Notes under the pieces: generated by a model
What the model was told of the DNA's origin: nothing
Database searches by the model: none
What the model saw: the letters and a program-made list of their open reading frames with translations, nothing else
Position numbers and translations under genes: made by a program
DNA from: Streptomyces noursei
GTDB taxonomy: Bacteria; Actinomycetota; Actinomycetes; Streptomycetales; Streptomycetaceae
Direction: 5' to 3'
Length of the DNA: 64,000 bases
Assembly: GCF_016917755.1 (NCBI RefSeq)
Contig: NZ_CP070326.1
Span: 310,001-374,000 of the forward strand
In this document: positions 3,930 to 18,667 of the stretch, piece by piece
Position numbering within the stretch: the stretch's first letter is position 1
Layout of the letters: every line of letters starts with the position of its first letter

Positions 3930-3937
3930 CGTGCGAG

Positions 3938-4081
3938 GGCTTCGCCGTGATCGCCGGGCTCACACTTCCGTACAGCAACGGCCCCACCGAAGGCGTCAAC
4001 ACCAAGACCAAACGGATCGCACGCCCGATACACGGACGAGCAGGCTTCAGCTTGCTCCGGCACCGCATCCTCCTTGGGTAG
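3938..4081 (+). mobile_element. ISL3-family transposase 3' remnant
   Basis: A frame running to TAG 4079-4081 encodes GFAVIAGLTLPYSNGP, TEGVNTKTKRIARPIHGR and FSLLRHRILLG, the conserved C-terminal end of ISL3-family transposases, including the Glu of the catalytic triad in the GPTEG motif. Only about 47 codons remain. It abuts the truncated FAD oxidase directly, so insertion or deletion at this element probably destroyed that gene. Confidence 0.8.
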
Positions 4082-4232
4082 CAGCACGCTCCGTTACCAC
4101 CGGATGTGCGCCAGGGCCGTTGATACAGACCCTCGCCCGGCTCCTCCGGTTCGCCTGCCTCCGGATCCGCCACCCGGGGCGTTCCCTTGGCCGGTGGCAC
4201 CGCTTCCAACGGGCCGGAACGCCGTCAATACC

Positions 4233-5216
4233 ATGCGCACTGTGAATCTTGATGAGCTGATGGCAGCACAGACAGGTCTTCGCGATGTCCCGGCGATGGC
4301 GGCAGGCGTCTCCACGGCGGGCGCACGCACCACGGCCACCCACGGACCGGTCGCGGTGACGGCGGATTCGTGTTTCCGGATCGCGTCGTTGACGAAGGTC
4401 TTCACCTCCGCGACGCTGGTCCGCGCACTGCGGGACCAGGGCATCGCATTGGACACCCCGGTCATCGAACTGCTCCCTGACCTGGCACCGGACTGGCGGG
4501 CCGACCCGAGCCTCACCGTCGAGCAGATCCTGGGTCAGGTGTCGGGGCTGCGCGAATCGGTGGACGGAGCGACCGCGGCGGCGCTGGGCGACGGGGACGG
4601 CGGGCTGCTGGAAGCCGCACGGCTCGTGGTCCGCGCCGGGAACGAGCGGGAGCCGGGCGCACGGTGGTCCTACTACAACGGCAACTACTTCCTGGCCGGT
4701 TCAATCCTTGCGGCCCTGAGCGGCACGACGTACGAGGGCGCGTTGCAGGCTCGGCTCCTCACCCCCTGGGGCCTGGCACGAACCGGCTTCGAGACCTCGC
4801 CGGCGTCCGTCACCGGGTGGGACGGCACCACCGAACTCCCGCTCCTGCGCTACCCGCGCACCCGTCGGCCCAGCGGGGGCCTGTGGTCGTCGGTGTCGGA
4901 GCTGCTGGCCGTCGGCGAGGGTCTGCTCGCCGACCGGGACCTCCTGGAGGAGATCCGTCGGCCGCGCACCCGATCCGACGACCCCATGACCTACGGACTC
5001 GGGTGGGCACTGGGGCCGTCGGGCCAGATGTATCTCAACGGACGGCTTCCCGGCTACCGGGCCGCCATGGTCCTCATACCGGACCGGGACCACGTGAGCG
5101 TGGTCCTCGCCAACCAGCAGAGCGCCCTGCCTGCCGTGGCGCAACTGCTCAGCGCCGTGCAGCAGCCTCTGACCGGGGACGACCTCGCCGAGGCGATCGA
5201 CGACTTCGCCGCCTGA
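4233..5216 (+). CDS. serine hydrolase, beta-lactamase/DD-peptidase family
   Basis: A 327-residue class C beta-lactamase-like serine hydrolase (esterase or peptidase). The nucleophile motif SLTK (SxxK) follows FRIA near residue 53, and the second motif YYN (YxN) lies in WSYYNGNYF near residue 150. The third motif is LNGRLPGY near 270, in place of the usual KTG/HTG. The open frame extends back to 4074, but that part overlaps the ISL3 remnant, so ATG 4233 is preferred. No signal peptide is visible, suggesting a cytosolic enzyme. The substrate is unknown; many such proteins in Streptomyces act on esters rather than beta-lactams. Confidence 0.85.
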   Translation: MRTVNLDELMAAQTGLRDVPAMAAGVSTAGARTTATHGPVAVTADSCFRIASLTKVFTSATLVRALRDQGIALDTPVIELLPDLAPDWRADPSLTVEQILGQVSGLRESVDGATAAALGDGDGGLLEAARLVVRAGNEREPGARWSYYNGNYFLAGSILAALSGTTYEGALQARLLTPWGLARTGFETSPASVTGWDGTTELPLLRYPRTRRPSGGLWSSVSELLAVGEGLLADRDLLEEIRRPRTRSDDPMTYGLGWALGPSGQMYLNGRLPGYRAAMVLIPDRDHVSVVLANQQSALPAVAQLLSAVQQPLTGDDLAEAIDDFAA

Positions 5217-5824: not shown

Positions 5825-7267
5825 TTACTCGGCGGCCTCGGGCGACGTGTGGGCTGCTGATGGTTTCGGGGTGGCCAGGAAGACCGTGGCCAGGGTGAGG
5901 GCGGCGGCCAACCACGTGGTGGTGTGGAACGCCTCGGCGAATGCCCGAGCCGTTTCCGGGGAGTCGCCTGCTTCCAGTGGGGACGTCGACGCGCCCGAGG
6001 GGAGCGAGGAGCGGTAGGCCACCGCGGTGACCGTGCCGAAGATGGCGATGCCCAGGCCGGCACCGGCCTCATAGGAGACGGACTCGATGCCCGCCGCGGC
6101 ACCCGCCTGGGAGGAGGGCGCGGTGGCCATGATCAGGTTCGAGGCGACCATCTGGACCAGTCCATGACCGAACCCGATCAGGCCCAGGCCGAGCGGGACC
6201 ACCGTGCCGGAGGCGACCAGGACATACCCGGCCGCCGCGAGCAGCAGGCCGGCGGGCACGTCCACCCGCGGTCGTCCCAGACGAGAGAGGACCATTCCGC
6301 CCACCGGTCCCGCCACCGTCGCGGCCACCGGCATCGGGATCAGATACAGTGCGGCGCCCTCCGCCGACAGTCCCTTGACGAACTGCAGGTACTGCACCAG
6401 TTGAAGTTCGAAGCCGACCATCACCAGCACCGGCAGCACCGAGGCCACCACACCGGCACGCAGTCCGGGCAGCCGGAACAGGGACAGGTCCAGCATCGGG
6501 TGCGGCAGGCGCTGCTGCCGTCGCACGAACAGGACCAGTGCGGTCAGGCCCAAGGCACCCGGCAGGGCCAACTCAAGTGCGCCGACGCCGTCGTGGGTGA
6601 AGGCGATGATGGTGTAGGCGCAGCCCAGGAACCCCACGATCGAGAGGAGGGGCGAGGTGGCCTCCCAGGGTTGCCGTTCGGACTCGACCTGGTTGCGCAG
6701 CAGCAGCGCCACTGCGGGCATGGCCAGCGCCGCGATCGGCAGGTTGACCAGGAAGATCGAGCCCCACCAGAAGTGCTGGAGCAGGAAGCCGCCCACCACC
6801 GGTCCCAGCGCCGAGGCCCCGGCGGCAACCGCGCTCCACGCCCCGATGGCCACCGCGTGGTCACGTCCGTCACCGAAGGTCTGCCGGATGAGCGCCAGCG
6901 TGGCCGGGATGATCATCGAAGCGCCGACCGCCAGCACTGCCCGGGCACCGATCAGGGCCAGCGGCCCCGGTGCCATCGCGCACAGTGCCGAGGCCGCACT
7001 GAAGACCACCAACCCGGCCAACAGCAGCCGCTGGTGTCCGATCCGGTCGCCCAACGGACCGCTGACCAGCACCAGTCCGACCATCAGGAGCGAGTACACG
7101 TCCACTGTCCACAGCACTTCGGGCGGGGACGCGTGCAGTTCGTGGGCGAGAGTCGGGACGGTGATGGTGAGGATGGTGACGTCCATGGCCGCGGGCAGGA
7201 AGCACAACAGCACCACGGCCAGCACCAGCCAGCGCCGGGCCCCGACCACAGGCGTCGTGCTGGTCAC
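5825..7267 (-). CDS. MFS transporter, DHA2 drug/metabolite efflux type
   Basis: A 480-residue inner-membrane proton antiporter with about 14 hydrophobic helices, the size and layout of the DHA2 family. Motif A is GPLGDRIGHQR between helices 2 and 3; the antiporter motif C region is GASALGPVVGG. The start is GTG 7265-7267, which overlaps the stop of the ATP-grasp gene as GTGA; longer frames in this region are chance extensions. It is the last gene of the leftward five-gene arm and is probably the exporter or self-resistance pump for that cluster's product. Its C-terminus converges with the hypothetical gene ending at 5781. Confidence 0.9.
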   Translation of the reverse strand: MTSTTPVVGARRWLVLAVVLLCFLPAAMDVTILTITVPTLAHELHASPPEVLWTVDVYSLLMVGLVLVSGPLGDRIGHQRLLLAGLVVFSAASALCAMAPGPLALIGARAVLAVGASMIIPATLALIRQTFGDGRDHAVAIGAWSAVAAGASALGPVVGGFLLQHFWWGSIFLVNLPIAALAMPAVALLLRNQVESERQPWEATSPLLSIVGFLGCAYTIIAFTHDGVGALELALPGALGLTALVLFVRRQQRLPHPMLDLSLFRLPGLRAGVVASVLPVLVMVGFELQLVQYLQFVKGLSAEGAALYLIPMPVAATVAGPVGGMVLSRLGRPRVDVPAGLLLAAAGYVLVASGTVVPLGLGLIGFGHGLVQMVASNLIMATAPSSQAGAAAGIESVSYEAGAGLGIAIFGTVTAVAYRSSLPSGASTSPLEAGDSPETARAFAEAFHTTTWLAAALTLATVFLATPKPSAAHTSPEAAE

Positions 7268-8559
7268 CGGTCGAGGCCCAGGGCCGTCCTCGCTCCGACG
7301 ATCAGATCGTGCAACTCGGCCAGGCTTGAGGCGTAGAACATGCAGCTCAGTCTGCCAGTTGGCAGATCCGTCAGCTCGGTGGGAACCACTCCCCGGTCGG
7401 CGTGTCGGGGCGAGGCCACCAGCCGCCCGAGCAGGCGCAGCACTTCCGGCAGATCCAGCCCGGCCGGAAGTCCGTAGAAGTCGTAGTTGCCGACCGCGTG
7501 GGTGTCGAGGTAGTCCGGGCCGATGAGGTGCGCGCCGAATTCGTGCACATGGCTGGACCCGGTGCGACGGGCGTTGAGGTCGTGCATGTAGACGACGCCG
7601 TCGCGGGCGATCGCGTCGATGCCGAAGCGCCCGCGGTAGCCTCGCCGTTGCATCTCCTCGGCCAGCCGGAGTCCGCCCTCGGTCAGCGGGCGGTACCACC
7701 ATCGGTCACGCAGTTCCCGCGCGGTGACGTTGCCGCGCAGGTGTGTGGCGCCCTCGAACAGCATGTCGGTGGTGTAGCACAGGTGGGGCGGGGCGTCGGC
7801 GGGCACCATGTACTCCACGGACGGGAAGTCGATGTCGCCGTCGAGGAACTCCTCGACCACCACCGGATCTTCGTCGTAGAACGTGCTCGCCGCCAGGCGC
7901 TCGGTGATGTCGTCGTCGCCCGGCCGGAAGATCAGCAGGCCGAGGCTCGCCTCCCCGCGGTCCGCCTTCACGATGCACGGCGTGCCCGTCGTGAGCATGC
8001 CCCGCACCGCCTCGGGCACCTCGTGCTTCCCGGAGCAGTGCGTACCGGGCGGGATGCGGCAGGGCCCGTCGGCCATGCCGAGGTCGGTGGCCAGGTCGCG
8101 CAGGCCAGTCTTGGTGTCCAACAGATCGCGCAGGCCCTGCTGTGGCGAGCTCTCCGGCAACTCGACCCCCACGCCGTGCCGGGTGCGCAGGACCCCGACG
8201 AACCGCCACAGGTCGGTGGTGGTGGTGTGCGGGATCAGCCGGAGCCTGCGGCCCGGCCCCGCGTGCGCGACGACGGCGGCCATCAGTCCGGGGTCGGCGA
8301 GCGTGTCGGCGAACAGCGAGCCGGTGCGGCCCGCCGGACTGAGGTTCACCACGCCGTCGAGCCCCAGGAACTCCCGCTGCCAGTCCAGGTCTCCGATCGG
8401 TTCGTAGGTGATCAGCATCTTGTCCAACGGCCCCCAGAACAGGGCCTGGTCCTGTTGGGCGTAGCACTCCGAAAGCAACGCGTCGACGTCGTCGGCCCGG
8501 ACGGCGAAGTCGTGCAGCGTGTCGACGGCGTTGCACACGCAGAGGGTGGGTGTGGTCAT
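7264..8559 (-). CDS. ATP-grasp ligase, putative amide-bond-forming
   Basis: A 431-residue ATP-grasp protein. After an N-terminal pre-ATP-grasp region it shows TPCIVKADRG (nucleotide-binding Lys), PVVVEEFLDGD (the acidic loop) and YMHDLNARRTGSS, where Asn and Arg normally bind metal and the acyl phosphate. The RRTG end resembles ligases of the PGM1 type that couple a carboxylate to an amine through an acyl phosphate. The start ATG 8557-8559 overlaps the stop of the creatininase-like gene (ATGA). From context I infer that it joins the acid made by the rightward arm to an amine made by the leftward arm. It could instead act on another amino acid; the family fixes only the chemistry. Confidence 0.85.
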   Translation of the reverse strand: MTTPTLCVCNAVDTLHDFAVRADDVDALLSECYAQQDQALFWGPLDKMLITYEPIGDLDWQREFLGLDGVVNLSPAGRTGSLFADTLADPGLMAAVVAHAGPGRRLRLIPHTTTTDLWRFVGVLRTRHGVGVELPESSPQQGLRDLLDTKTGLRDLATDLGMADGPCRIPPGTHCSGKHEVPEAVRGMLTTGTPCIVKADRGEASLGLLIFRPGDDDITERLAASTFYDEDPVVVEEFLDGDIDFPSVEYMVPADAPPHLCYTTDMLFEGATHLRGNVTARELRDRWWYRPLTEGGLRLAEEMQRRGYRGRFGIDAIARDGVVYMHDLNARRTGSSHVHEFGAHLIGPDYLDTHAVGNYDFYGLPAGLDLPEVLRLLGRLVASPRHADRGVVPTELTDLPTGRLSCMFYASSLAELHDLIVGARTALGLDR

Positions 8560-9338
8560 GTCTTCTCCTCGCGCAGCAGTCCCTTGCCCTCGGACATCAG
8601 GGCGACCGCGGCCGAGACCACGTGCCGGAAGAGTTCCTCGCCCAGGGCGGCGGTGGCGTCCGAAGTGCTCGACAGGACGCCTTGGTTGGTCGTGCGGTCC
8701 ACATCGACGGGGTGGAGGTAGATGCCCGGGCGGGGCGGGTCGGCGTGGTCGGGCCGTGCGGGCCGGACCAGGTCCGGACGGAGGTGGAGCATCAGGCTGG
8801 TCTCGGTGATGCCCGCGTGCTCGGCGTGCCACCCGGGGAAGAGCGGCACCCGCCCCGCCAGCCAGTCCGCGTCGACCAGGCTCCACCAGCTCAGCGCGAT
8901 GAACTCCTTGCCCGCGGCGACCGGCCGTCGGCCCACCTCGTCGAGGACCTCGAACAGGAACGGTTCGTTCTCGAAGTGGCCGTTGACGATCAGCAACCGG
9001 CGCCACGGCAGGGCGCACAAGGACTCCAGTGCGTCCTCCAGGAAGGCCAGTAGGGACCGACCGCGCACATGGACGGTGCCGGGAAAGGCCAGTCCTCCCC
9101 CGCTCTGCGGCAACGACCGCGCCGCGATGGACTGCGCCGGCAAGGTCAGGGCGTTCAGTTCGCCGGCGATCTGCCGGGCGAAGGCGTCGGCCAGGAGCGT
9201 GTCCACGGACAGCGGCAGGTGCGGGCCGTGCTGTTCGACGGACCCCACCGGCCACACCACGGTCCGGCCGGCGGTGGCCGCCAGGATCTCGGCGCTGCTC
9301 AGGTCCCATAGTTGCGCCCCGGTCGATCGGGAGGTCAT
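8556..9338 (-). CDS. creatininase-family amidohydrolase (Cgc4-like role proposed)
   Basis: A 260-residue metal-dependent amidohydrolase of the creatininase family. The metal and catalytic motifs are intact: PVGSVEQHGPHLPLSVDT (Glu, His, Asp), VNGHFENE (the NGHxxN motif) and HAGITETS. These enzymes open cyclic amides or trim formamide groups. Start ATG 9336-9338 overlaps the upstream stop (ATGA). Lying right after a dihydropyrimidine-dehydrogenase-like gene, it is a good candidate to open 5,6-dihydrocytosine, the step assigned to Cgc4 in congocidine biosynthesis; whether Cgc4 itself is a creatininase-family protein I could not check. A mycofactocin MftE-like role is unlikely because no other mft genes are near. 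Confidence 0.85.
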   Translation of the reverse strand: MTSRSTGAQLWDLSSAEILAATAGRTVVWPVGSVEQHGPHLPLSVDTLLADAFARQIAGELNALTLPAQSIAARSLPQSGGGLAFPGTVHVRGRSLLAFLEDALESLCALPWRRLLIVNGHFENEPFLFEVLDEVGRRPVAAGKEFIALSWWSLVDADWLAGRVPLFPGWHAEHAGITETSLMLHLRPDLVRPARPDHADPPRPGIYLHPVDVDRTTNQGVLSSTSDATAALGEELFRHVVSAAVALMSEGKGLLREEKT

Positions 9339-10234
9339 GACCGCACCTGCCCGGATCGGTCCGCTCCGACGACGGGTGCGCAGCTGTGGTCGGTGTTTCC
9401 CGATCCGGTGGCCTCGGCCACGATCCGGGTGAGCGTGAGGTTCATGTCGGTGTGCAGCGCGGTGTAGACCTGGACCGCCACCGCGCCGACCCCGAGATAG
9501 TCGTGGACGTCCCGACCCGACTGCACGCCGCCGGAACCCATCAAAGGCAGGGAGAACCCGGCGCTGCGCAGCTTCCACAGTGAGGCCAGTACGAGCGGCT
9601 TGATGCCCGGTCCCGAGTAGCCGAACACACCCCCGAGGCGGAGGTCGCCGGTCTCCGGGTGCACGGCGGCGGCGGGCAGGGTGTCGCTGATGGTCACCAC
9701 GTCCGCGCCGGCTCGGGCGGCGGCCAGCGCCCGGGCATGGAGGCCCTCACCGCTGGCCAGCTTCACCGAGAACGGCACTCGGGTCGCGGCGCGGGCCGCC
9801 GCGGTGTACGCGTGCACCCGCTCGGGAGCGTCGTCGAGACCGTCCTTCTCATTGAGGCAGGAGATGCCGAGCTCCAGTGCCCGGCAGCCGGCTGCCTCCA
9901 CCCGGGCCGCCAACTCGGCCAGTTCCGCAGGGCTGTCGGCGTGCAGCGACGCGATGACCGGCAGCCGGTCCCGTGCCAGGTCGTGCAGGATGCCCACCCA
10001 GTGGTCGACGGACCGTTTGGAGTAGGTGGTGCTGTTGATCATTCCGGTGGGCAGGCGGATGATGCGCTCGTCCAGGCCCGTTGGCGGGTTGGGGTGGATG
10101 GTCTTGGTGACCACCGCGCCCGCGCCGGAGTGCAGCAGTCTGCGGATGTTGCGTTCCTGGTCGGTGAGCAGGCCCGAGCCGACCACAACCGGATTGGCCA
10201 GGTCCATCCCCAGCAGATGTGTCGCGGTCGCCAT
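9335..10234 (-). CDS. dihydroorotate/dihydropyrimidine dehydrogenase-like FMN enzyme
   Basis: A 299-residue TIM-barrel FMN oxidoreductase. It starts with LANPVVVGSG, followed by VVTKTIHPNPP (FMN-contacting Lys), INSTTYSKRS, VKLASGEG, FGYSGPGIKPL and MGSGGVQSGRD (FMN phosphate loop), as in dihydroorotate dehydrogenases and the uracil-reducing domain of dihydropyrimidine dehydrogenase. Such enzymes interconvert a pyrimidine and its 5,6-dihydro form. It is one base from the upstream gene and overlaps the next by 4. With a CMP-glycosidase-like gene before it and an amidohydrolase after it, reduction of cytosine to 5,6-dihydrocytosine (the Cgc5 step of congocidine) is the best guess. A housekeeping pyrD is less likely in this operon. 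Confidence 0.85.
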   Translation of the reverse strand: MATATHLLGMDLANPVVVGSGLLTDQERNIRRLLHSGAGAVVTKTIHPNPPTGLDERIIRLPTGMINSTTYSKRSVDHWVGILHDLARDRLPVIASLHADSPAELAELAARVEAAGCRALELGISCLNEKDGLDDAPERVHAYTAAARAATRVPFSVKLASGEGLHARALAAARAGADVVTISDTLPAAAVHPETGDLRLGGVFGYSGPGIKPLVLASLWKLRSAGFSLPLMGSGGVQSGRDVHDYLGVGAVAVQVYTALHTDMNLTLTRIVAEATGSGNTDHSCAPVVGADRSGQVRS

Positions 10235-10235
10235 G

Positions 10236-10751
10236 TCAGACCGCCGTCCTCGTCCGACCCAGCGCCGCGAGCACGCCGTCGACCAGCAGTGTCGAGTCCG
10301 CGGCGATCTCTTCGGCGGAGAAGAACGTGGCGACGGCGACCTGGGCGAGCCCCTTGAGCAGGTGACTGGCCGACTCGGCGAAGGGTTGATCGGTGATCCC
10401 CACGATGGGGCGGCCCAGTGCGCTGGCCCACCCCAGCTCGATGTGCGTGCCGTCCGTGCGCAGCAGGGTGCCGTCGAGCACCGGCAGTACCGGCACGAAG
10501 ACATCGCACTCGCACATCCACGCATAGTCGCGCACGGATACCTCTTCGGGGGTGAACGAGGCGGTGTCGGCGCCGAACCGCTCCGCCACGTGCGCGGACA
10601 GCACGGTGGCGCCGGCCTGCCGCGACTGGTCGATGGTCCGACTCAGGCATTCCCGAATCGGCGTCGCCATTCCGCCGGGCACCAAGGCATGCTGGATCGG
10701 ACCGCCGACAAACAGGGTGACGCCGCACAGGGCGCCCGGGGAGACACTCAT
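10236..10751 (-). CDS. nucleoside 2-deoxyribosyltransferase-like N-glycosidase (CMP hydrolase type)
   Basis: A 171-residue member of the nucleoside 2-deoxyribosyltransferase fold. It shows TLFVGGPIQH at the N-terminus, the central CDVFVPVLP and GTHIELGWASALGRPIVG, whose Glu is the nucleophile position. Secondary-metabolic members of this fold, such as MilB and BlsM, hydrolyse CMP to cytosine and ribose phosphate. The start ATG 10749-10751 is chosen; AAGGAG lies about 12 bases upstream, and longer readings would extend the N-terminus beyond the fold. It is the first gene of the leftward operon, as expected for the enzyme releasing the precursor base. Confidence 0.8.
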   Translation of the reverse strand: MSVSPGALCGVTLFVGGPIQHALVPGGMATPIRECLSRTIDQSRQAGATVLSAHVAERFGADTASFTPEEVSVRDYAWMCECDVFVPVLPVLDGTLLRTDGTHIELGWASALGRPIVGITDQPFAESASHLLKGLAQVAVATFFSAEEIAADSTLLVDGVLAALGRTRTAV

Positions 10752-11443
10752 GACTTTCCATGGCTCCTTCGAAAGAGTCCACCGACGGCCGGGCGATCGG
10801 GCGGAATTCGGCCACCGGAAAGAGAGGGGAATGGGCAGCACAATCACATGATGCGCTTGCCGTGAATCACAGGGGATTCCGGGCGTGAAACCCGGTGGTG
10901 TCACCGGGCGCCCGGGTACCCGTTGCCCACCCGTCCCGCACTGCGCGTCCATCAGGTAGGCAAATAGGTAACTTGAGGCTAGTCAGGGGCGATTCATCAC
11001 CACAAGCGTCATCTGAGCCAGGTGGAAATACGTGACAAATGGTGCAAAAAGTGCACACCAATCGGCCTGAGCCTCCGCTCAACCACCACCGACAAGGGCT
11101 CTCCCTGCTGGATCCACGGGCGCCAGGGGCAGGTCGAGGGATTCTGTTCCACAGACATATCCACCGCTGAGCGCGAGCGGCCGAAACGTCGCCGAACTCA
11201 TGTGCAAAGCCCTTACGGACGCCGACACTTGAAAGCAAATGGCGAGTAAAACCGGAGACCACATTGACAGGCGAAGGGAGCCTCATCTAGCTTCGATAAG
11301 CGTGAATGGCCGGTACCGCCTTGTCTCCGTTCGGGGCCGGCTCACCTCCGGCCCGAATGCCGCCGCGATCTCATCTTTCTTTCCCACGTTCCGGACGCCG
11401 GCCGTGGCCTTTTGGATGAACCCACCCAGAGGGGAAAATCCTG
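10752..11443. other. divergent intergenic region between the two cluster arms
   Basis: About 690 bases separate the first genes of the leftward and rightward arms. Open frames here are short, overlap on both strands and have no recognisable protein. It is presumably the regulatory core of the cluster. One promoter-like element for the rightward arm is described separately; I could not find an equally clear one for the leftward arm, and no operator palindrome stands out. No pathway-specific regulator gene is present in the cluster. Confidence 0.5.
11264..11293 (+). promoter_or_regulatory. candidate sigma-70-type promoter for the ACP operon
   Basis: TTGACA (11264-11269) and TAGCTT (11288-11293) are separated by 18 bases, close to the HrdB consensus, and lie about 150 bases upstream of the ACP start. 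The position leaves an untranslated leader of roughly 145 bases. This is a match by eye only. Confidence 0.45.
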
Positions 11444-11713
11444 ATGAACCCGTTGCAGACCATCAAACGCATTCTGCACTCCGATGTGCTGGTAGAGGTG
11501 CCGATCGACCAGATGCGGCTCAACGACAGCCTTCGCGAAAGCTATGGCATGGACTCACTCGGATTCGTGGAACTGCGCGTGCAGTGTGAGGAGGCGTTCG
11601 ACATCAACATCCCCGACGAGGCCGTTGCCACCGGCCAGTTGTCCACCCTCGGCGATGTACTCGCGCTGGTCGAGCGGCTGTCGGGGGCCGTCCACCCCCC
11701 GGCCACCACGTGA
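11444..11713 (+). CDS. acyl carrier protein
   Basis: An 89-residue stand-alone acyl carrier protein. The phosphopantetheine attachment serine is in GMDSLGFVELR near residue 38, the DSL motif of discrete carriers, followed by the recognition helix and FDINIPDE. It opens the rightward arm and overlaps the aminotransferase as GTGA, so the two are translationally coupled. It is expected to carry the growing acyl chain for the ketosynthase, dehydratase-like protein and ligase downstream, in the position that Cfa1 has in coronafacic acid synthesis. Confidence 0.9.
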   Translation: MNPLQTIKRILHSDVLVEVPIDQMRLNDSLRESYGMDSLGFVELRVQCEEAFDINIPDEAVATGQLSTLGDVLALVERLSGAVHPPATT

Positions 11714-13095
11714 GCACGGCCCCGGTCGCCCGGACCGACCACGCCGGGGACCCCACCGGTGTGCTGTCGCGCGGCAGGGACCTGCATCTGAACCACTACG
11801 GGGCAGCACGGCTGCCGTTCGCCTGCGTGGGCGGACGCGGCCTGGAGCTCGACATGGTCGACCTGAGCCCGGCGGGGCGAGGCAGACGGCTACGGCTGCT
11901 TGACGCCAGCGGCGGCTACGCCAGCGCGACCCTGGGCGGCGACCACCCCGTGATCCGCGCGGCGCTGACCCGCAGCACCGCGGTCGGCAACGTCACCGAC
12001 GAACTGGGGTCGTGGGAACGCGCGGAACTCCTCGACCGGCTCTTCGGCCCCGGCGGGCTGTGGACCGACCACTTCCCCACGGGGCGGTACCACGTCAGCG
12101 GACGCAACTCCGGCTCGGAGGGGAACGAGTTGGCATTACGGCTCGTGCTGGAGTCCCGGTTCGACGGCCGGCGACTGCGCCACCGACCGGGCAAGGTGCG
12201 GCGCGACACCATCCTGGCCTTCCAGGGTGCCTGGCACGGCTGGACCGGTGGGCTGGTGCAACTGCTCAACCGCAGGTACTACCGCGCCGGACTGCCCGCG
12301 CCGGACACCGCCGGCCCGTACGGCGTCCGGGTCGCGCACATCCCGTTCGGCGACCCCGAAGCCCTGGCGGAGTACTTCGCCGCGTCTGCCGACCGGCTGC
12401 TCGCCGTAGTGGTCGAGCCGATCCAGGGCGACGCGGGCATTCTGCTGCCTCCGCCCGGCTACCTGCGCGAACTCGCGCGGCGGTGCGCGGAAGAGGACGT
12501 GCTGCTCGTGGCCGACGAGGTACTGACGTTCGCCAAGACCGGTGACTGGTTCGCCATGCGCGACGCGGACGGGCCGGTGCCCACCGACATCACCGTCATC
12601 GGCAAGTTCCTCGGCATGGGCGCGGTGTCCACGTCGATGGTGATCGCCCGCAAGGGTCTGGCCGTCCGCTCCTCCGGCGCCGTGACCACCTCCGATCTCC
12701 GGCCACTGAACTGTGCGGTGATCCGTGACGGTATCGAACACATCGGGACCGAAGGGCTGCTGCGACGGTCGGCCAAGGTCGGCGTGCACCTGGCCGAACA
12801 TCTCGATGCCACCCTGGTGGGCCGCCACCCTGACGTGTTCACCGAGGTCCGCGGCACCGGGGCGATGCTCGGAGTGGAGCTGACCGCCACGGCGGCGGAC
12901 CGGATCGGCGAGCTGCGCAGGGCGCTCATCGAAGCGGGTGTGTACGCGGAGTTCATGGCGGGCGCGGGGAAACGCTCGGGCGGCCGGCGCTACGTCCATC
13001 CCACGCTGCGGATCGTGCTGCCGCTGATCGCCACCACGACACAGGCCGACGAGATCGCGGACCGGGTGGCGGCAGGCGCCCGGGCGCTGCGGTGA
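11710..13095 (+). CDS. class III PLP aminotransferase
   Basis: A 461-residue PLP-dependent aminotransferase related to glutamate-1-semialdehyde aminomutases and acyl-chain aminotransferases. It has NSGSEGNELA (phosphate-binding loop), FQGAWHGWTGG, LLVADEVLTF (Asp to the pyridine nitrogen) and the Schiff-base lysine in TVIGKFLGMG. GTG 11710 overlaps the ACP stop. The direct coupling to an ACP suggests that it puts an amine on a carrier-bound or freed keto/aldehyde intermediate, giving the amino group of the proposed amino-cyclopentane acid. Codon TTA at 12136-12138 makes translation dependent on the bldA leucyl tRNA, a common control on antibiotic genes. Confidence 0.9.
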   Translation: MSTAPVARTDHAGDPTGVLSRGRDLHLNHYGAARLPFACVGGRGLELDMVDLSPAGRGRRLRLLDASGGYASATLGGDHPVIRAALTRSTAVGNVTDELGSWERAELLDRLFGPGGLWTDHFPTGRYHVSGRNSGSEGNELALRLVLESRFDGRRLRHRPGKVRRDTILAFQGAWHGWTGGLVQLLNRRYYRAGLPAPDTAGPYGVRVAHIPFGDPEALAEYFAASADRLLAVVVEPIQGDAGILLPPPGYLRELARRCAEEDVLLVADEVLTFAKTGDWFAMRDADGPVPTDITVIGKFLGMGAVSTSMVIARKGLAVRSSGAVTTSDLRPLNCAVIRDGIEHIGTEGLLRRSAKVGVHLAEHLDATLVGRHPDVFTEVRGTGAMLGVELTATAADRIGELRRALIEAGVYAEFMAGAGKRSGGRRYVHPTLRIVLPLIATTTQADEIADRVAAGARALR

Positions 13096-13640
13096 GCGCG
13101 GAGTTCCGCACCCGGATCGAGCACGTCGACACCGACGCGACCGGGATCGTGCACTTCTCCCGCTACACCTCACTGATGGAAACCGCAGGCACCGAACACC
13201 TCGAAGCGCACCACGCGGGTCTGACCGCCTTCAGCGCGGCGGGCGTCGACCTGGTGGCCGCCGACCTGCGGGTGACCTACCTCAACAGCGCCGTGTACCG
13301 CGATGTGATCGTCGCGGACACCCGAGTCGACCACGTCGGCGCGGCCTGGTTCGCGCTGGCGGTGAGGCTGCTGCGAGAGGAGGAAGACGGCGTCCGCACC
13401 CCGTTGGTGACCGGCGACCTCGTCTTCGCCGCCGTCGACCCCGACACCCGGCGCGCGGTACCCCTGCCGGCGCCGCTGCGACAGACTCTGAGAGGAATGG
13501 TCCCGGATGCCGCACACCGACCAATCGGCACCCCCTCCCGCGGCGGTCCGCGCGGCTCGGCCGCTGGGTACCTCGGCGATCGCCGCCCTGGTGCACGGAC
13601 GCCATCCGCGACTGTTCATCGACCGGGTTCTGGACCATGA
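13092..13640 (+). CDS. 4HBT-type hotdog thioesterase
   Basis: The first 135 or so residues form a 4-hydroxybenzoyl-CoA-thioesterase-like hotdog domain: HVDTDATGIVHFSRY holds the catalytic Asp and the motif before the long helix with METAGTEHLE. Such proteins hydrolyse acyl-ACP or acyl-CoA thioesters. It overlaps the aminotransferase by 4 bases. The open frame runs on to 13640, giving 182 residues; the last 45 or so are Gly/Pro/Arg-rich, overlap the next gene and are unlikely to be part of the fold. It probably releases the cluster's acid from its carrier. Confidence 0.85.
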   Translation: MSAEFRTRIEHVDTDATGIVHFSRYTSLMETAGTEHLEAHHAGLTAFSAAGVDLVAADLRVTYLNSAVYRDVIVADTRVDHVGAAWFALAVRLLREEEDGVRTPLVTGDLVFAAVDPDTRRAVPLPAPLRQTLRGMVPDAAHRPIGTPSRGGPRGSAAGYLGDRRPGARTPSATVHRPGSGP

Positions 13641-14031
13641 GCCCGGCGTGTTCCTGCGCAGCATGTTCGCCGTCTCGGCCGAGATGAGCGCACTGTCCGG
13701 GCACCTGCCCGAGCGCGGCCTGACCCCGGGGGTGGTCCTGCCCGGCAGCCACACCATGCAGGCTTTCGCCCAATCCGGTGTGCTGCTCTACCAGTTGAGC
13801 AGCGCCCCGCTCGCCGACGACGAGGTGACCCTGGTCGGCACGGTCAAGTCCCGTTTCCTCGTCCCGGTCGTGCCCGGCGACCAGGTCGTGCTCGACGTAC
13901 GCGCGGACCGGCTGTCCGGCCACACCTTCGCCTTCTCCGCCGCGGTGACCGTCGAGGGTCGATCCGTCGCAGGATTCCGCGGCGCGATGAGCCGGGTGAC
14001 GGTCGATCCCGCGAGGGCCCGGCCGTGGTGA
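13507..14031 (+). CDS. FabZ/FabA-like hotdog protein (3-hydroxyacyl-ACP dehydratase-like)
   Basis: A 174-residue hotdog protein related to 3-hydroxyacyl-ACP dehydratases: IAALVHGRHPRLFIDRVL matches the FabZ entry, and LSGHLPERGLTPG carries the catalytic His. The helix that normally reads MPGVLIIEAMAQ is LPGSHTMQAFAQ here, so the catalytic Glu position appears to be Gln, after an insertion of about five residues. It may therefore catalyse an altered reaction, such as isomerisation or cyclisation, or depend on another acid. ATG 13507 has AGAGGAA 10 bases upstream and is needed to keep the first strand, although this overlaps the thioesterase frame by 134 bases. Equivalent in order to Cfa2. Confidence 0.8.
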   Translation: MPHTDQSAPPPAAVRAARPLGTSAIAALVHGRHPRLFIDRVLDHEPGVFLRSMFAVSAEMSALSGHLPERGLTPGVVLPGSHTMQAFAQSGVLLYQLSSAPLADDEVTLVGTVKSRFLVPVVPGDQVVLDVRADRLSGHTFAFSAAVTVEGRSVAGFRGAMSRVTVDPARARPW

Positions 14032-15134
14032 CCCCGGTGATCACCGGGCTGGCCTGGGACACTCCCCTGGGCCGGGCCCTGGAGGCGGTGTGGGAGCGGC
14101 TGTGCGCAGGGGACTCCGGTCTGGCGCCCGTGGACTCGCCGCACCCGCTGCGCAACACCGCCGCGGCCGTCATCGAGTCGCTGCCCTATGGGACGCCTGC
14201 GGGCAGGCGGCAACGGCTGCTCGCCGGGCGGGCGCTGCGCGCCGCGTTCGCGGACGCCGGTCTGTCCACGACCGACGCCGAGGTCGGCCTGGTACTGGGC
14301 ACCAGCTTCGGTGCCTCGTTGGACGAGGCGGAACCGACACTGCACGCCTGGGCCGACGACGCGGCGGCGGGCATCGGGCACCCGGGCACGCCGGTGTGTG
14401 TCATGACCGCGTGTTCCGCGGGATCGGACGCGATCGCCATCGCGCAGACCCTGGTGCGCTCGGGCGAGCGGCGGGTGTGCGTGGCGGGCGGGGTGGACGT
14501 GGTCACCGAGGCCAAGCGGCTCGGGCATTCCGCGCTGGGCACGATGAGCCCCACCGACATGCGGGCGTTCGACCGGGCACGCGACGGCATGCTGCTCGGC
14601 GAGGGCGCGGCGTTCGTGGTGGTCGAGCACCCCGACTCCGCCCGGGAGCGCGGCGCCCGGGTGTACGCCCGGCTGCACGGGGCCGGCGCGGCCAACGACG
14701 CCGCCGGGCTCACCGCACCGGACCCGTCCGGACGCTCCGTGGTACGCGCGGTGGAACGCTGCCTGGCATCCGCGGGCCTGGCACCCTCGGACGTCGCAGT
14801 GGTCAACGCACACGGGACCGGCACCCCGCTCAACGACGAGGTCGAGGCACGCAGCCTGCTGCAACTGTTCGGCGAGGACGGCCCGTTGACGTTCGCCACA
14901 AAAGGGGCTTTCGGGCACAGTCTGGGCGCCACCGGGGCCATCGAGGCCGTGGCGACGGTACTGGCGCTGCGGCACCGACGGGTTCCGCCGGTGGTCGGGC
15001 TCCGCGATCCGGTGGCACCGGTGCGGCTGGCCACGGAGTCGGCGCAACCTGTGGGCGCCGGCGCCGGATTGAGCCTGACGTTGGGGTTCGGCGGGTTCAA
15101 CACGTGTCTGCTGTTCGAAGGGGTGGGGGTGTGA
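14025..15134 (+). CDS. beta-ketoacyl-ACP synthase
   Basis: A 369-residue stand-alone ketosynthase that condenses acyl and malonyl carriers. The catalytic triad is intact: Cys in MTACSAGSDA, His in NAHGTGTPLND and His in GAFGHSLGATG. It is slightly shorter than FabF (about 410) mainly at the N-terminus, which begins VITGLAWDTPLGRAL. The start is one of the GTG codons at 14025 or 14028, both overlapping the stop of the preceding gene. It is the only complete KS in the cluster and is followed by a Cys-less KS-like partner, a pairing like Cfa3 with Cfa4. Confidence 0.9.
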   Translation: MVTPVITGLAWDTPLGRALEAVWERLCAGDSGLAPVDSPHPLRNTAAAVIESLPYGTPAGRRQRLLAGRALRAAFADAGLSTTDAEVGLVLGTSFGASLDEAEPTLHAWADDAAAGIGHPGTPVCVMTACSAGSDAIAIAQTLVRSGERRVCVAGGVDVVTEAKRLGHSALGTMSPTDMRAFDRARDGMLLGEGAAFVVVEHPDSARERGARVYARLHGAGAANDAAGLTAPDPSGRSVVRAVERCLASAGLAPSDVAVVNAHGTGTPLNDEVEARSLLQLFGEDGPLTFATKGAFGHSLGATGAIEAVATVLALRHRRVPPVVGLRDPVAPVRLATESAQPVGAGAGLSLTLGFGGFNTCLLFEGVGV

Positions 15135-15649
15135 CACACGTGCCGCCGGGCACACGGGTCCTGGGTTCGGCGACGGTGGTCGCCGAGGACCCGGCCGCGT
15201 ACACGAGGAACAAACCGTCCTTCTATGCCGACCCCGCTGCCTGGCTGGTCGCCGAGACCGTGGACCGGGCGCTGGCGGGCTGCGCCGAGTTGGTGGGCGA
15301 CGCCACCGACGACACCGCGATCCTGGTCATGAGCGCGACCGGAAGCGAACGGACGATACGCCGCATCGCCGACTCGGTGCCGCGCTCCCGGGTCTCGCCG
15401 CTGCGCTTCGCCGGAGCGAATCCGGGGGTACTGGCCGGGCTGCCCGCCCTGCGCCACAGGCTGCGCGGTCCGTCGTTGTTGTTGGCGGCGCACCCCGACA
15501 CAGCCACCCCCGTGGCGTTCACCGTGATCGACAGATGGCTCGCCGACGGCCACGCCCGGCACGTGATCCTGGTCGGCCTGCAATCCACCGCGGGAGAGCG
15601 GCAGTTGTGCGACTGTCTGGTCCTGACCAGTGCCGGGGAGGGCCGGTGA
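15131..15649 (+). CDS. small ketosynthase-like protein without active-site Cys
   Basis: A 172-residue protein starting at GTG 15131 (GTGA overlap with the ketosynthase). The segment FAGANPGVLAGLPALRHRL then RGPSLLLA matches the half of a ketosynthase that leads to the nucleophile, but the place where TACSSG should follow reads LLLAAHPDTATP, so the Cys is absent, and the His-containing C-terminal half is missing. It keeps the strand-helix continuation HARHVILVGLQ. It is probably a non-catalytic partner or a cyclase. It lies between KS and AMP ligase exactly where the coronafacic acid operon has the small Cfa4. A frame open from 14090 runs into this gene, but its upstream part lies within the ketosynthase and is not coding. 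Confidence 0.75.
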   Translation: MTHVPPGTRVLGSATVVAEDPAAYTRNKPSFYADPAAWLVAETVDRALAGCAELVGDATDDTAILVMSATGSERTIRRIADSVPRSRVSPLRFAGANPGVLAGLPALRHRLRGPSLLLAAHPDTATPVAFTVIDRWLADGHARHVILVGLQSTAGERQLCDCLVLTSAGEGR

Positions 15650-17004
15650 ACGGCTTCACCCGGTCCGCGGTGGCCGACTTCCTGAGCCGGGTCCACGCCA
15701 CCGTGGCCGGCGCGGACGCCGGCGCGCCGGCCGGGGTGGACGACGTGTTGGCGGATCTGGCCGGGCTGGGCCTCGCACCGGGCGACGCGGTCGTGCTCTG
15801 CCTGGCCAACGGAGTCGAACTGCTGCGTGTGCAGCTCGCGTCGTTGTTGCTGGGCCTGGTGCCGCTGGCCGTGCCTCCGAGCACGCCATGGCAGCGGGTC
15901 CGGGCACTGGCAGGGCACGTCGGGGCCAGCGTGGTGGTGACCACCCGACTGACCGGCGCGGAACCGCAGGCGCCGGTGGGCGACGCGTTCGCCGTACCGA
16001 CCGGGCACTGCGCCACTCCGTACCGGCCGGGCGAGATCCTGCTGTCCACCTCTGGTACCTCGGGAATGTTCAGTGCGTGTGTGCACCACGTGCCTTCGCT
16101 GCTGCACAACGCCCGTCTGCACGCCGAGGCCACAGGCATCACCGCGGCCGACACACTGCTGGTGAACCTGCCGCTGTACTACTCCTACGCCCTGGTGGCG
16201 CAGGCGTTCGCCGCGTACGTGACCACGGCGCGACTGGTGCTCGACGGGCCGCCGTTCTCGCCGGGCGCCTACCGCGACGCGATCACCGCGCACGGGGTCA
16301 CCCACTCATCGGTGACACCGACGATCGCCCGCCAACTGTTGGCCGACCCCGGGCCCGTGCCCCCCGGTCTGCGGGCGCTGACGGTCGGCGGGGACCGGCT
16401 CGCGCCCGCGGAGGTGGCGGACCTGCTGGCCGCACTGCCGTCTTCTGAGCTGTATCTGACCTACGGGCTCACCGAGGCCGGGCCGCGCGTGTCGACCCTG
16501 GCCGCGCACGCCGAGCCCGCGCACCGGTACGGCTCGGTCGGCCGGCCGCTGCCCGGGGTGCGCGCGTCGCTGCGCGAGGTGCAGGGCGACGTGGGCGAAC
16601 TGGTGGTGGAATCCGACACCGTACTGCTGCGACGGGTCGGGGACCACAGCGGCAGAGTTCTGCTGGGACCGCGGACCATCGCCACCGGGGACGCCTTCTC
16701 GATCGACGAGGGTTATCTGACCTTCCACGGGCGCCTGTCGGACTTCGTGGTGCTGCGTGGCGAGAAGGTCTCGCTGAACACCGTCCGGCAGGCCGCCCAC
16801 GCCATCCCGGGGGTGGTGCACTGCCTGCCCAAGGTGGTGAACGAGGGCGGCACACAGGTGCTCGACGTCCATCTGTCGGTCACCGACTGCTTGCCGGGCG
16901 GGGAGAAGGCCGTACGCCGCCTCCTCAACTCCCAGTTGCTGCCCGCCGAACGCCCTCGTGCCGTCTTCATCTCCGCCGCCGACCCGGAGACCTTCCGCAA
17001 ATGA
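15646..17004 (+). CDS. AMP-dependent acyl ligase (ANL family)
   Basis: A 452-residue adenylate-forming ligase that activates a carboxylic acid and loads it on CoA or an ACP. Core motifs are present in order: LLSTSGTSGMF (P-loop), YLTYGLTEAGPR, ATGDAF and GRLSDFVVLRGEKVSL (hinge), and the catalytic lysine is at the very end in ETFRK. It is short compared with the usual 500-550 residues. GTG 15646 overlaps the previous stop and the frame upstream of it is not coding. By position it matches Cfa5 and should supply the starter acyl group for the cluster's ACP. Confidence 0.85.
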   Translation: MNGFTRSAVADFLSRVHATVAGADAGAPAGVDDVLADLAGLGLAPGDAVVLCLANGVELLRVQLASLLLGLVPLAVPPSTPWQRVRALAGHVGASVVVTTRLTGAEPQAPVGDAFAVPTGHCATPYRPGEILLSTSGTSGMFSACVHHVPSLLHNARLHAEATGITAADTLLVNLPLYYSYALVAQAFAAYVTTARLVLDGPPFSPGAYRDAITAHGVTHSSVTPTIARQLLADPGPVPPGLRALTVGGDRLAPAEVADLLAALPSSELYLTYGLTEAGPRVSTLAAHAEPAHRYGSVGRPLPGVRASLREVQGDVGELVVESDTVLLRRVGDHSGRVLLGPRTIATGDAFSIDEGYLTFHGRLSDFVVLRGEKVSLNTVRQAAHAIPGVVHCLPKVVNEGGTQVLDVHLSVTDCLPGGEKAVRRLLNSQLLPAERPRAVFISAADPETFRK

Positions 17005-17813
17005 CGCTACGCCTCGGCTGGACCGTTCCCACTGGCCTCTCACCCGTCGAGCTCCGCGAGTTCGCCATGACCGCGGAACACCTCGGATACGACCACCTCT
17101 CCGTCCCGGAACACCTGGTGTCCAGCACTCCCGCCTACGAGAGCCTGACGCTGGTGGCGTTCCTGGCGGCGGTCACCACCCGGATCGAACTGGCCACCGC
17201 GATGACGATCCTGCCGCACCGCCCGGTGGTGCTCGCCGCCAAGCAGGCCGCGCAGCTGGCCCACCTCAGTGGCGACCGACTGCGGCTGGGCGTCGCCACG
17301 GGGGCCGATCCCGCCGAGTCCGCCGCCCTCGGCGCCGTTCCGGGAACCCGCGCGGCGCTGTTCGAGGAACAGGTCCGTGCGCTGCGCCTGCTGTGGACCC
17401 GGCCGGCAGCGGATTTCGCCGGCGAGCACGTCGCGTTCACCGGCGTCACCGTCACCCCCCGGCCGCGCCGGATACCGCTCTGGATGGGCGGCGGCACCCT
17501 GCGCACCGGAGGCAGACCGGGCGCGCTGCGCCGGATCGCCACCCTCGCCGACGGCTTCACCATGTCCGGGCTGCTCGCCAACCGCGTCAACCGCGGTGCC
17601 GCGCTCATCGCCGAGCTGCGCACCGCGGTGACCGAAGCCGGCCGTGACTGGGCCGCCTTCGGCACGGAGGCCCGTCTCAGGCCCGCCCCCGGCCGGCCGG
17701 ATACCTGGCGGTCGCTCGCCCAGGCATGGCGGTCCGCCGGCGCCACCCACCTCACCGTCACCACCGACGACCTCTCCCTGCTGGCACCACTGCACGCGGC
17801 GTTGACCGGGTAG
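17001..17813 (+). CDS. LLM-class (F420/FMN-dependent) oxidoreductase
   Basis: A 270-residue luciferase-like oxidoreductase: LGYDHLSVPEHLV at the N-terminus, LATAMTILPHRPVVLAAKQ, GDRLRLGVATG and the PLWMGGG strand near residue 160 are typical of the F420-dependent branch. These enzymes transfer hydride to or from F420 or oxygenate substrates with FMN. ATG 17001 overlaps the ligase stop (ATGA), so it closes the eight-gene rightward operon. A role in reducing an enone or ring double bond of the polyketide-derived acid is plausible but unproven. Confidence 0.85.
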   Translation: MTLRLGWTVPTGLSPVELREFAMTAEHLGYDHLSVPEHLVSSTPAYESLTLVAFLAAVTTRIELATAMTILPHRPVVLAAKQAAQLAHLSGDRLRLGVATGADPAESAALGAVPGTRAALFEEQVRALRLLWTRPAADFAGEHVAFTGVTVTPRPRRIPLWMGGGTLRTGGRPGALRRIATLADGFTMSGLLANRVNRGAALIAELRTAVTEAGRDWAAFGTEARLRPAPGRPDTWRSLAQAWRSAGATHLTVTTDDLSLLAPLHAALTG

Positions 17814-17923: not shown

Positions 17924-18667
17924 ATGAACCGTGAACAGATCTCCAGGATCGCGCACACCGAGCACCCGATTAAGTCTCCGCTCGACGACGACTCGGTACA
18001 CCGGCTGCTGCAACGCGGGCTCCCGAGGGGCGACGAGCGGGTGCTCGACCTCGGGTGCGGCGGAGGGGAATGGCTCCTGCGTGCCCTGGCCACACGACCG
18101 CACCTCCATGCCGAGGGCGTGGACGTGTCCGCGGACGCCCTGGCCCAGGCAGCCGCCGCGGCGCTCGACCGCGGCGTCCAGGACCGCCTGGTCCTGCACC
18201 ACCAGAAGGCCGAGGACTTCGTTTCCGCCGAGCCGTTCGACGTGGTCCTCAGCTTCGGGGCCACGCATGCCTTCGGGGGCCTGCTCCCCACCCTCGCGGC
18301 GGCCCGCAAGCACCTGGCTCCCGGCGGCCGTGTCCTCGTCGGAGAGGGATTCTGGGACCGCCCGCCGTCGCCGGAGGCCGTCGAAATGCTGGGGAACTTC
18401 ACCGACCTGGCGACCACTGTGGACCGTGTCGTCGCCGACGGCTGGACGCCGGTCGACGGTCACGTCAGCACCCGTCGTGAGTTGGACGACTACGAGTGGG
18501 CCTGCTGGGGTTCGCTGGCCGCCTGGGCCCTGGACCACCCTGCCGATCTGGACAGCGCGCACGCGCTCGAAACAGCCACGACCCGGCGCTCCGAATGGCT
18601 GCGCGGCTACCGGGACACCTGGGGCTTCGTCTCCCTGGTCCTGCGCCCGACACCCGGCCGGGCCTGA
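17924..18667 (+). CDS. SAM-dependent methyltransferase
   Basis: A 247-residue class I methyltransferase. The SAM-binding motif I is VLDLGCGGGEWLL near residue 42, followed by EGVDVSADAL (motif II Asp) and FDVVLSFGATHAF. ATG 17924 is preferred; the frame is open to 17726 but that part overlaps the end of the previous gene. The 110-base gap from the LLM gene and lack of overlap suggest a separate unit, so membership of the biosynthetic cluster is uncertain. The substrate is unknown. Confidence 0.85.
   Translation: MNREQISRIAHTEHPIKSPLDDDSVHRLLQRGLPRGDERVLDLGCGGGEWLLRALATRPHLHAEGVDVSADALAQAAAAALDRGVQDRLVLHHQKAEDFVSAEPFDVVLSFGATHAFGGLLPTLAAARKHLAPGGRVLVGEGFWDRPPSPEAVEMLGNFTDLATTVDRVVADGWTPVDGHVSTRRELDDYEWACWGSLAAWALDHPADLDSAHALETATTRRSEWLRGYRDTWGFVSLVLRPTPGRA

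Follow-up and report, generated by a model that had tools for sequence, protein, structure and literature searches.

Which natural product would call for a ring-forming cassette, an amidine-forming gene trio and an ATP-grasp ligase in a single cluster? The question is raised by 13 genes in two divergent arms, five on the minus strand and eight on the plus strand, that occupy positions 5825-17813 of a 64,000-nucleotide stretch of Streptomyces noursei DNA (the window; positions 310001-374000 of a 9.86 Mb single-contig genome; Table 1). An earlier note on this DNA had predicted that an amino-carbocyclic acid is linked to 3-aminopropionamidine as an amide, which would give amidinomycin or a relative. 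All the genes that it named are present in the two arms, and the prediction, taken as such, agrees with the cassette on the right, the recurring trio on the left and a ligase that follows the trio wherever we located both (13/13 loci). Judged by homology and synteny, genes for an aminocyclopentane acid, for 3-aminopropionamidine and for an amide ligase are all present, and the cluster very probably makes an amide of the two building blocks, if both ring isomers and a modified form are taken together. Amidinomycin, an antiviral antibiotic known for decades, is a Streptomyces product of this composition, and we predict, with a probability of about 0.5, that it is the product of this cluster. The argument uses gene identities, synteny, co-occurrence, signature residues, the fold predicted for the ligase and the finding that AmcE and AmcD have diverged selectively; from these we infer every reaction in this organism, the 1,3 position on the ring above all.

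The right arm resembles the cispentacin cassette

By its gene content, the right arm is a recognisable cyclopentane amino acid cassette of the cispentacin type. It holds homologues of all seven genes amcB-H, in the order B-C-D-E-F-G-H and on one strand, six of which exceed the NCBIfam cut-offs for cispentacin families. AmcD matched no Amc-specific NCBIfam model and was assigned by its position and by 38-54% identity to the AmcD of six complete cassettes, and AmcG had no solved relative by sequence at E 0.01. AmcG is rare: of 392 Streptomyces genomes sampled, 18 have a protein that scores above its cut-off. The gene order is that of the published amc genes in the amipurimycin cluster (Hibi et al. 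2023, PMC10698177). In the pathway described there, AmcH loads 2-oxoglutarate and AmcF-AmcG produce 3-oxocyclopent-1-ene-1,2-dicarboxylate bound to the acyl carrier protein (ACP), after which AmcE decarboxylates, FabI reduces, AmcC aminates and AmcD releases cispentacin, a 2-amino acid, so that the published pathway gives a 1,2-amino acid (PMC10698177). The window has the seven genes and their order in common with this amipurimycin cassette, but adds an LLM gene, an insertion in AmcE and diverged AmcE and AmcD proteins, and its cassette has an amidine arm and a ligase as partners in place of a nucleoside. The aminocyclopentane arm foreseen in the earlier note stands, although the note had not recognised it as a cispentacin cassette; as published, that cassette leads to the 1,2- and not the 1,3-amino acid.

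Clusters of the coronafacic acid (CFA) type share the ACP, AmcE, ketosynthase (KS), cyclization factor (CYF) and ligase with the window but not the aminotransferase or thioesterase of the cassette, and the cispentacin AmcE model fits their AmcE better than it fits that of the window.

A recurring trio predicted to supply 3-aminopropionamidine

In congocidine-type pathways, 3-aminopropionamidine arises from cytidine monophosphate (CMP), and the earlier note had taken the glycosidase, DHODH-like and creatininase-like genes of the left arm for the set in question. The same three genes do occur in three pyrrolamide-type loci (L025-L027), where they are 52-67% identical to the window trio. Pyrrolamides contain 3-aminopropionamidine (PMC4047045). 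The nearest solved sequences to the glycosidase are BlsM (5vto, E 8.8e-14) and a CMP/hydroxymethyl-CMP hydrolase (4jem, E 1.1e-13), both of which, to judge by the entry names, act on CMP, and the creatininase-like protein matches the PDB creatininase 1q3k at E 7e-38.

The DHODH-like protein, 97% identical to two Streptomyces noursei entries, has Gly123, Asp184 and Cys126, and an alignment of the query with the 120 listed of 169 homologues shows all three residues in every one of its 121 rows. Cys126 is the catalytic-type cysteine and is retained, whereas the positions of Gly123 and Asp184 are occupied by Asn in the DHODH B structure 1ep1 and in Streptomyces class-1 paralogues. In the paralogue alignment, from which L094 was excluded for its internal TGA, the first Asn was found in 5/5 and the second in 4/5, the fifth (L095) being gapped there with its MINTV motif present; PyrD of the window's own genome (L088) aligns over the second half only and has Asn at the second place. 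Asn residues at these two places contact the pyrimidine in DHODH and in DPD (Asn668 and Asn736 in DPD, numbers for which a literature search found no confirming paper). A Gly and an Asp instead would suit the amino group of cytosine, and the three enzymes are predicted to act on CMP, cytosine and dihydrocytosine.

The DHODH-like gene (E 1e-30) was found in 10 of the 392 sampled Streptomyces genomes, with the three-gene set together in 10/10. Besides the window, these comprise two whole clusters (L019, L020, which duplicate L059 and L063 and were counted once), four loci of another kind (L021-L024) and the three pyrrolamide-type loci. The trio genes are likewise adjacent in all 13 of the loci named below. 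Since AmcG and the DHODH-like gene are both rare (18/392 and 10/392 singly) and yet adjoin in three of these genomes (the window, L019 and L020), their co-location exceeds chance.

An ATP-grasp ligase that follows the amidine genes

In all 13 named loci the trio has an ATP-grasp gene downstream of it; nine of these loci carry a cispentacin arm and four an ectoine-synthase gene, and among the 13 the ATP-grasp gene never occurs without the trio. Because it accompanies the trio alongside two alternative acid cassettes, the ligase appears to track the amidine while the acid source varies. The only cyclopentane-linked group of this ligase family among the 13 loci is the window's cluster type, in which both arms and the ligase stand together in 9/9 loci of the clade. 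The window ligase has a full-length predicted fold, closest to peptide and amide ligases, and the conserved residues of PGM1/BesA-like amide ligases; PGM1, BesA and 8ynd are, however, only about 20% identical to it and differ in predicted amine and acid. It is 88% identical to a S. noursei ligase entry, and a phylum-wide search of 396 genomes found it in the window's own genome alone. The MFS protein, which has a 79-91% identical copy in 9/9 sister loci and copies of 52% and 58% identity in two ectoine-synthase loci (L067 and L068), probably exports the product. Natural fusions of a creatininase-like protein to an ATP-grasp ligase also exist (P0021 and P0029, 719 and 720 amino acids), and in one sister cluster about 1.4 kb of sequence resembling a TnpB-type insertion element sits between these two genes (L061:8589-10000).

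Proposed pathway

In the right arm, 2-oxoglutarate and malonate would be the precursors of 3-aminocyclopentane-1-carboxylic acid. AmcH would load 2-oxoglutarate on the ACP, and AmcF-AmcG would extend it by one malonyl unit and cyclise the chain to ACP-bound 3-oxocyclopent-1-ene-1,2-dicarboxylate, as published for the cispentacin homologues (PMC10698177). Unlike in the cispentacin pathway, the LLM enzyme would then reduce the ring with both carboxyls still present, after which AmcD, perhaps with the altered AmcE, would release the ACP-side carboxyl; this would depart as CO2 from a saturated beta-keto acid, and the C1 carboxyl of 2-oxoglutarate would be kept. AmcC would aminate the ketone; as the ketone carbon is common to both pathways, the choice of carboxyl alone would decide whether the amino acid is 1,2 or 1,3. 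In the left arm, cytosine would be released from CMP by the glycosidase and reduced by the DHODH-like enzyme, and the creatininase-like enzyme would open the reduced cytosine to 3-aminopropionamidine. The ATP-grasp ligase would finally form the amide, which the MFS protein probably exports.

Evidence bearing on the ring isomer

Amidinomycin is the amide of a 3-amino (1,3) cyclopentane acid. From the structure of the published intermediate, we deduce that the carboxyl that is kept decides between the isomers: the ketone carbon is the same for both, and retention of the malonate-derived carboxyl leads to the 1,2-acid, whereas retention of the C1 carboxyl of 2-oxoglutarate leads to the 1,3-acid. 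Mass spectrometry, which the earlier note had suggested, cannot separate the two products, since both are C9H18N4O.

We compared the Amc proteins of eight loci of the window's clade (the window, L058-L061, L063, L064 and L066) with those of six cispentacin-type loci (L071, L072, L077, L079, L081 and L082) and three CFA-type loci; L062 and L065, which lie at contig ends, and L105 were left out of the alignments. Among the clade loci, L060 belongs to Streptomyces celluloflavus NRRL B-2493. In a tree of E+F+G+H, the clade forms one group, sister to L081 (support 100/99), in a branch that also holds L077 and L082. L081 alone among 16 other AmcG loci fetched has an LLM match; this gene occupies the equivalent position, scores 226.6 bits where the second-best match of the L081 genome reaches 78.4, and is a likely orthologue. 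The clade and L081 are also alone among the compared loci in having a five-residue insertion after the catalytic GHLPER loop of AmcE. Insertion and LLM gene therefore co-occur (eight clade rows and L081) and are both absent from 6/6 other cispentacin-type and 3/3 CFA-type loci. One of these six, L105, was the only hit besides the window in an AmcE search of 99 order-level genomes (mostly Streptomyces).

The AmcE protein itself has diverged. Its NF058663 score is 189.9 and 196.9 bits in the two clade members scanned and 230 in L081, against 264-280 in three LLM-free cispentacin-type loci and 278 in the one CFA-type locus scanned. The identity of clade AmcE to CFA-type AmcE lies 18.2 points below that of five LLM-free cispentacin-type loci (bootstrap 10.9-25.7), a drop reached by 0 of 300 random column sets, and the corresponding drops are 2.0 points for KS, 4.7 for AmcG, 1.0 for AmcH and 3.4 for the ACP. 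AmcD identity is 10-12 points lower in the clade. Of the 203 AmcC columns that do not vary among cispentacin-type loci, the clade retains 169; this is the only count used for AmcC, since one CFA locus had entered through an unrelated aminotransferase. Two simpler accounts of the AmcE divergence were rejected: it is no mere by-product of the 134-base overlap with amcD, as a drop of 14.4 points (bootstrap 5.6-21.8) persists outside the overlap, and it does not reflect generally fast evolution of the arm, as KS, AmcH and ACP have no clear drop and AmcG a small one. In summary, there has been little change in the genes that lead to the shared intermediate, whereas the genes acting on it afterwards have diverged and been joined by an oxidoreductase gene, as a carboxyl switch to the 1,3-acid predicts. 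This pattern is suggestive and not proof, because the LLM gene, the insertion and the divergence amount to one event on one branch and not to independent repeats.

Several further observations weigh against the 1,3-acid and amidinomycin. AmcE keeps its catalytic His, matches 46 of the 54 columns that never vary across the cispentacin- and CFA-type proteins together, and scores above the equivalog cut-off, and so may still perform the cispentacin decarboxylation. As FabI does the reduction in the published pathway, which needs no extra reductase, the LLM enzyme could do something else. L081 was flagged as a long row, so that its placement is unsure, and the AmcC tree does not settle it; moreover, no amidine genes were found in the 19 kb fetched around it. 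AmcG, too, shows a small drop (bootstrap 0.2-9.9), and AmcD has no family model against which it could be scored. A literature search with most subscription journals outside its coverage found no published amidinomycin cluster for comparison; noformycin was likewise without a match, and no title or abstract start described this type of cluster.

Weighing the alternatives

The closest competitor is that the right arm makes cispentacin, (1R,2S)-2-aminocyclopentane-1-carboxylic acid, as published, and that the ligase joins it to 3-aminopropionamidine, which would give an isomer of amidinomycin; we know of no described compound of this kind. The seven amcB-H homologues in order, six of them over equivalog cut-offs, the nesting of the clade among cispentacin-type loci in the E+F+G+H tree and the residues retained in AmcE and AmcC all speak for it. 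The cut-offs cannot serve as proof of cispentacin, however, as CFA-type AmcE passes the same one, and the clade AmcE (190 and 197 bits) falls below even the CFA-type protein scanned, carries the insertion after its catalytic loop, and goes together with a diverged AmcD and an LLM gene fixed in the cluster. The cispentacin isomer is therefore possible but doubtful, and we favour amidinomycin over it. It is unlikely that the amide is further changed by the LLM enzyme, which would oxidise the ring or the amidine after coupling, so that the end product is neither plain isomer. LLM-class enzymes are varied, and a different LLM gene follows the trio in L021-L024, but the window's enzyme is of the F420 type, and we tie it to the acid because its gene is the last of the acid-making operon and its likely orthologue in L081 stands without amidine genes in the stretch fetched.

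Two other explanations deny the link between the arms or the amidine altogether. The arms might make separate products, or the ligase might use another acid, their adjacency reflecting shared regulation only; the trio is indeed found without the other arm in L021-L027, and the cassette alone in L071, L072, L077, L079, L081 and L082. We consider this quite improbable in view of the constant company of arms and ligase in the clade, the conserved divergent promoter-like sites, and a ligase not seen without the trio in 13 loci, where its partner cassette supplies a ring arm in some and an ectoine synthase in the others. A role of the trio in pyrimidine catabolism or mycofactocin biology, with no amidine link, is scarcely credible. 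The earlier note had named best homologues in such loci as the finding that would overturn it, and this did not occur. The DHODH and creatininase families are common to these processes, but the DHODH-like protein misses the curated cut-offs of the PreA and PyrD equivalogs widely (PreA 81.8/335 bits, PRK07259 143.1/269), the creatininase-like protein misses those of creatininase (195.2/235) and mycofactocin MftE (99.8/172), PreA scored above its cut-off in 0 of 199 Streptomyces genomes, and the trio recurs as a unit in 10/10 loci.

Related loci with other acid sources

Congocidine/distamycin (pyrrolamide) clusters have the trio in common with the window. There, the amidine is thought to be attached to pyrrole acids by condensation domains of a non-ribosomal peptide synthetase (NRPS) (PMC4047045), whereas the window has an ATP-grasp ligase and a cyclopentane acid. 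Among the scanned genes of L026 are an NRPS, a stand-alone condensation domain, sugar genes and an Amidohydro_2 amidohydrolase; of the 16 genes called at this locus, 10 recur in L025 and 11 in L027, at 56-86% identity. The genome with L026 (G150) carries this pyrrolamide-type cluster and a cispentacin-type cassette on separate contigs (C277 and C1258; L026 and L072).

A third arrangement joins the trio, the ATP-grasp gene and an ectoine synthase without a cyclopentane arm (L067:5003-10644, L068:7252-12873, L069:7366-11341 and L070:2279-7836; hosts S. samsunensis, Longimycelium tulufanense, Dactylosporangium roseum and an uncultured Paraburkholderia symbiont). These loci share with the window a ligase of the same family (38-58%) and, in L067 and L068, the MFS relative, but the ectoine synthase (PF06339 in L067-L069, a 55% homologue in L070) takes the place of the cyclopentane arm as acid source. 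Enzymes of this class can form 5-amino-3,4-dihydro-2H-pyrrole-2-carboxylate (ADPC) from glutamine in a side reaction (PMC6344544, PMC4795551), and we predict that the four loci are candidate noformycin-type clusters. In L069, a PhyH-family gene downstream of the ligase (L069:11338-12213) contains the ectoine-hydroxylase-like stretch WHSDFETWHAEDGMP; because of this gene, the locus may make a hydroxylated variant.

L021-L024 combine the trio with an MFS gene and have no ligase of the window's family. In each of them the trio is followed by an LLM gene other than that of the window, 85-87% alike across the four loci (e.g., L024:8582-15407), no acid cassette was recognised, and an FMN-reductase gene is present in L024 alone; they form an unexplained small amidine cluster of four Streptomyces. 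The only other LLM-bearing AmcB-H cassette found (L081:1970-16845) is flanked by genes for transporters, two family III CoA-transferases, a Peptidase_C26 protein and a glutamine-synthetase-like protein; this neighbourhood hints at a ring amino acid with gamma-glutamyl protection.

Cluster layout, boundaries and regulation

The four-base overlaps that the earlier note had described for almost all neighbouring genes are exact at 8 of 11 same-strand junctions, the remainder being a 1-base gap and overlaps of 7 and 134 bases. The window gene beyond the MFS gene (3238-4245), an FAD-binding oxidase-like frame with an FAD-binding domain match only and an arginine-rich end, possibly a remnant, was not found in nine related loci. 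The methyltransferase beyond the LLM gene (17924-18667) was not found in the 0.6-0.8 kb available there in six loci, nor were the methyltransferase and a sulfatase gene found in L019 and L020 (5.3 and 2.3 kb beyond the LLM gene). As these flanking genes were not found at related loci, the cluster ends look like the limits of what is conserved.

The arms diverge from an intergenic region of 692 bases with one promoter-like site for each arm. In 2000 base shuffles of this region, the left-arm pattern arose in 0.6% and the right-arm pattern in 0.1%. The AmcC gene has a single TTA codon (codon 143) that is absent from seven relatives, and hence a dependence on bldA would be particular to the window strain. 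An Rfam scan of the window gave 0 matches. Elsewhere in the window (39170-39917), a ketosynthase domain was matched in two overlapping reading frames, and the polyketide synthase (PKS) gene there may be frameshifted.

Table 1. Genes and promoter-like sites of the divergent cluster, with window coordinates and supporting matches (aa, amino acids)
Feature	Position	Strand	Match or predicted role
MFS exporter, 480 aa	5825-7267	-	PF07690 E 4.5e-42; best NCBIfam model SmvA subfamily, 346.9 bits, below cut-off 701
ATP-grasp ligase, 431 aa	7264-8559	-	predicted to couple ring acid and 3-aminopropionamidine
Creatininase-family amidohydrolase, 260 aa	8556-9338	-	PF02633 E 1.9e-56; predicted dihydrocytosine opening
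DHODH-family flavoprotein, 299 aa	9335-10234	-	PF01180 E 2.3e-28; predicted cytosine reductase
CMP N-glycosidase-like protein, 171 aa	10236-10751	-	PF05014 26.1 bits, slightly below cut-off 28.8
Promoter-like site, left arm	10976-11005	-	TTGnnn-N18-TAGnnT; in 10/10 divergent intergenic regions
Promoter-like site, right arm	11264-11293	+	TTGACA-N18-TAGCTT; pattern in 5/10 intergenic regions
AmcB-like acyl carrier protein	11444-11713	+	NF058660 111.9 bits, cut-off 80
AmcC-like class-III aminotransferase	11710-13095	+	NF058664 751.4 bits, cut-off 600
AmcD-like hot-dog thioesterase	13092-13640	+	4HBT_2 E 1.1e-13
AmcE-like hot-dog enzyme (FabA-like in Pfam)	13507-14031	+	NF058663 189.9 bits, cut-off 140
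AmcF-like ketosynthase	14025-15134	+	NF058662 562.4 bits, cut-off 325
AmcG-like cyclization factor, KS partner (KS-like fragment in Pfam)	15131-15649	+	NF058659 207.3 bits, cut-off 80
AmcH-like 2-oxoglutaryl-ACP ligase (AMP-binding)	15646-17004	+	NF058661 591.9 bits, cut-off 370
F420-type LLM oxidoreductase	17001-17813	+	TIGR03619 178.3 bits, cut-off 166.9; predicted ring reductase

Implications

We tentatively propose, at a little under even odds, that the gain of an F420 LLM enzyme and a re-tuned AmcE/AmcD pair redirected the cassette to a 1,3-amino acid, a ring related to gamma-aminobutyric acid (GABA), and that one ligase family couples interchangeable acids, the ring acid here and an EctC product in the noformycin-type loci, to 3-aminopropionamidine. 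If this is true, the window holds the genes for amidinomycin, for which our literature search gave no pathway, and one ring-forming PKS would yield either amino acid isomer by the choice of the carboxyl that is dropped. A ligase family with an apparently fixed amine and a variable acid, which already points to candidate noformycin clusters, would make amidine natural products minable by one marker gene.

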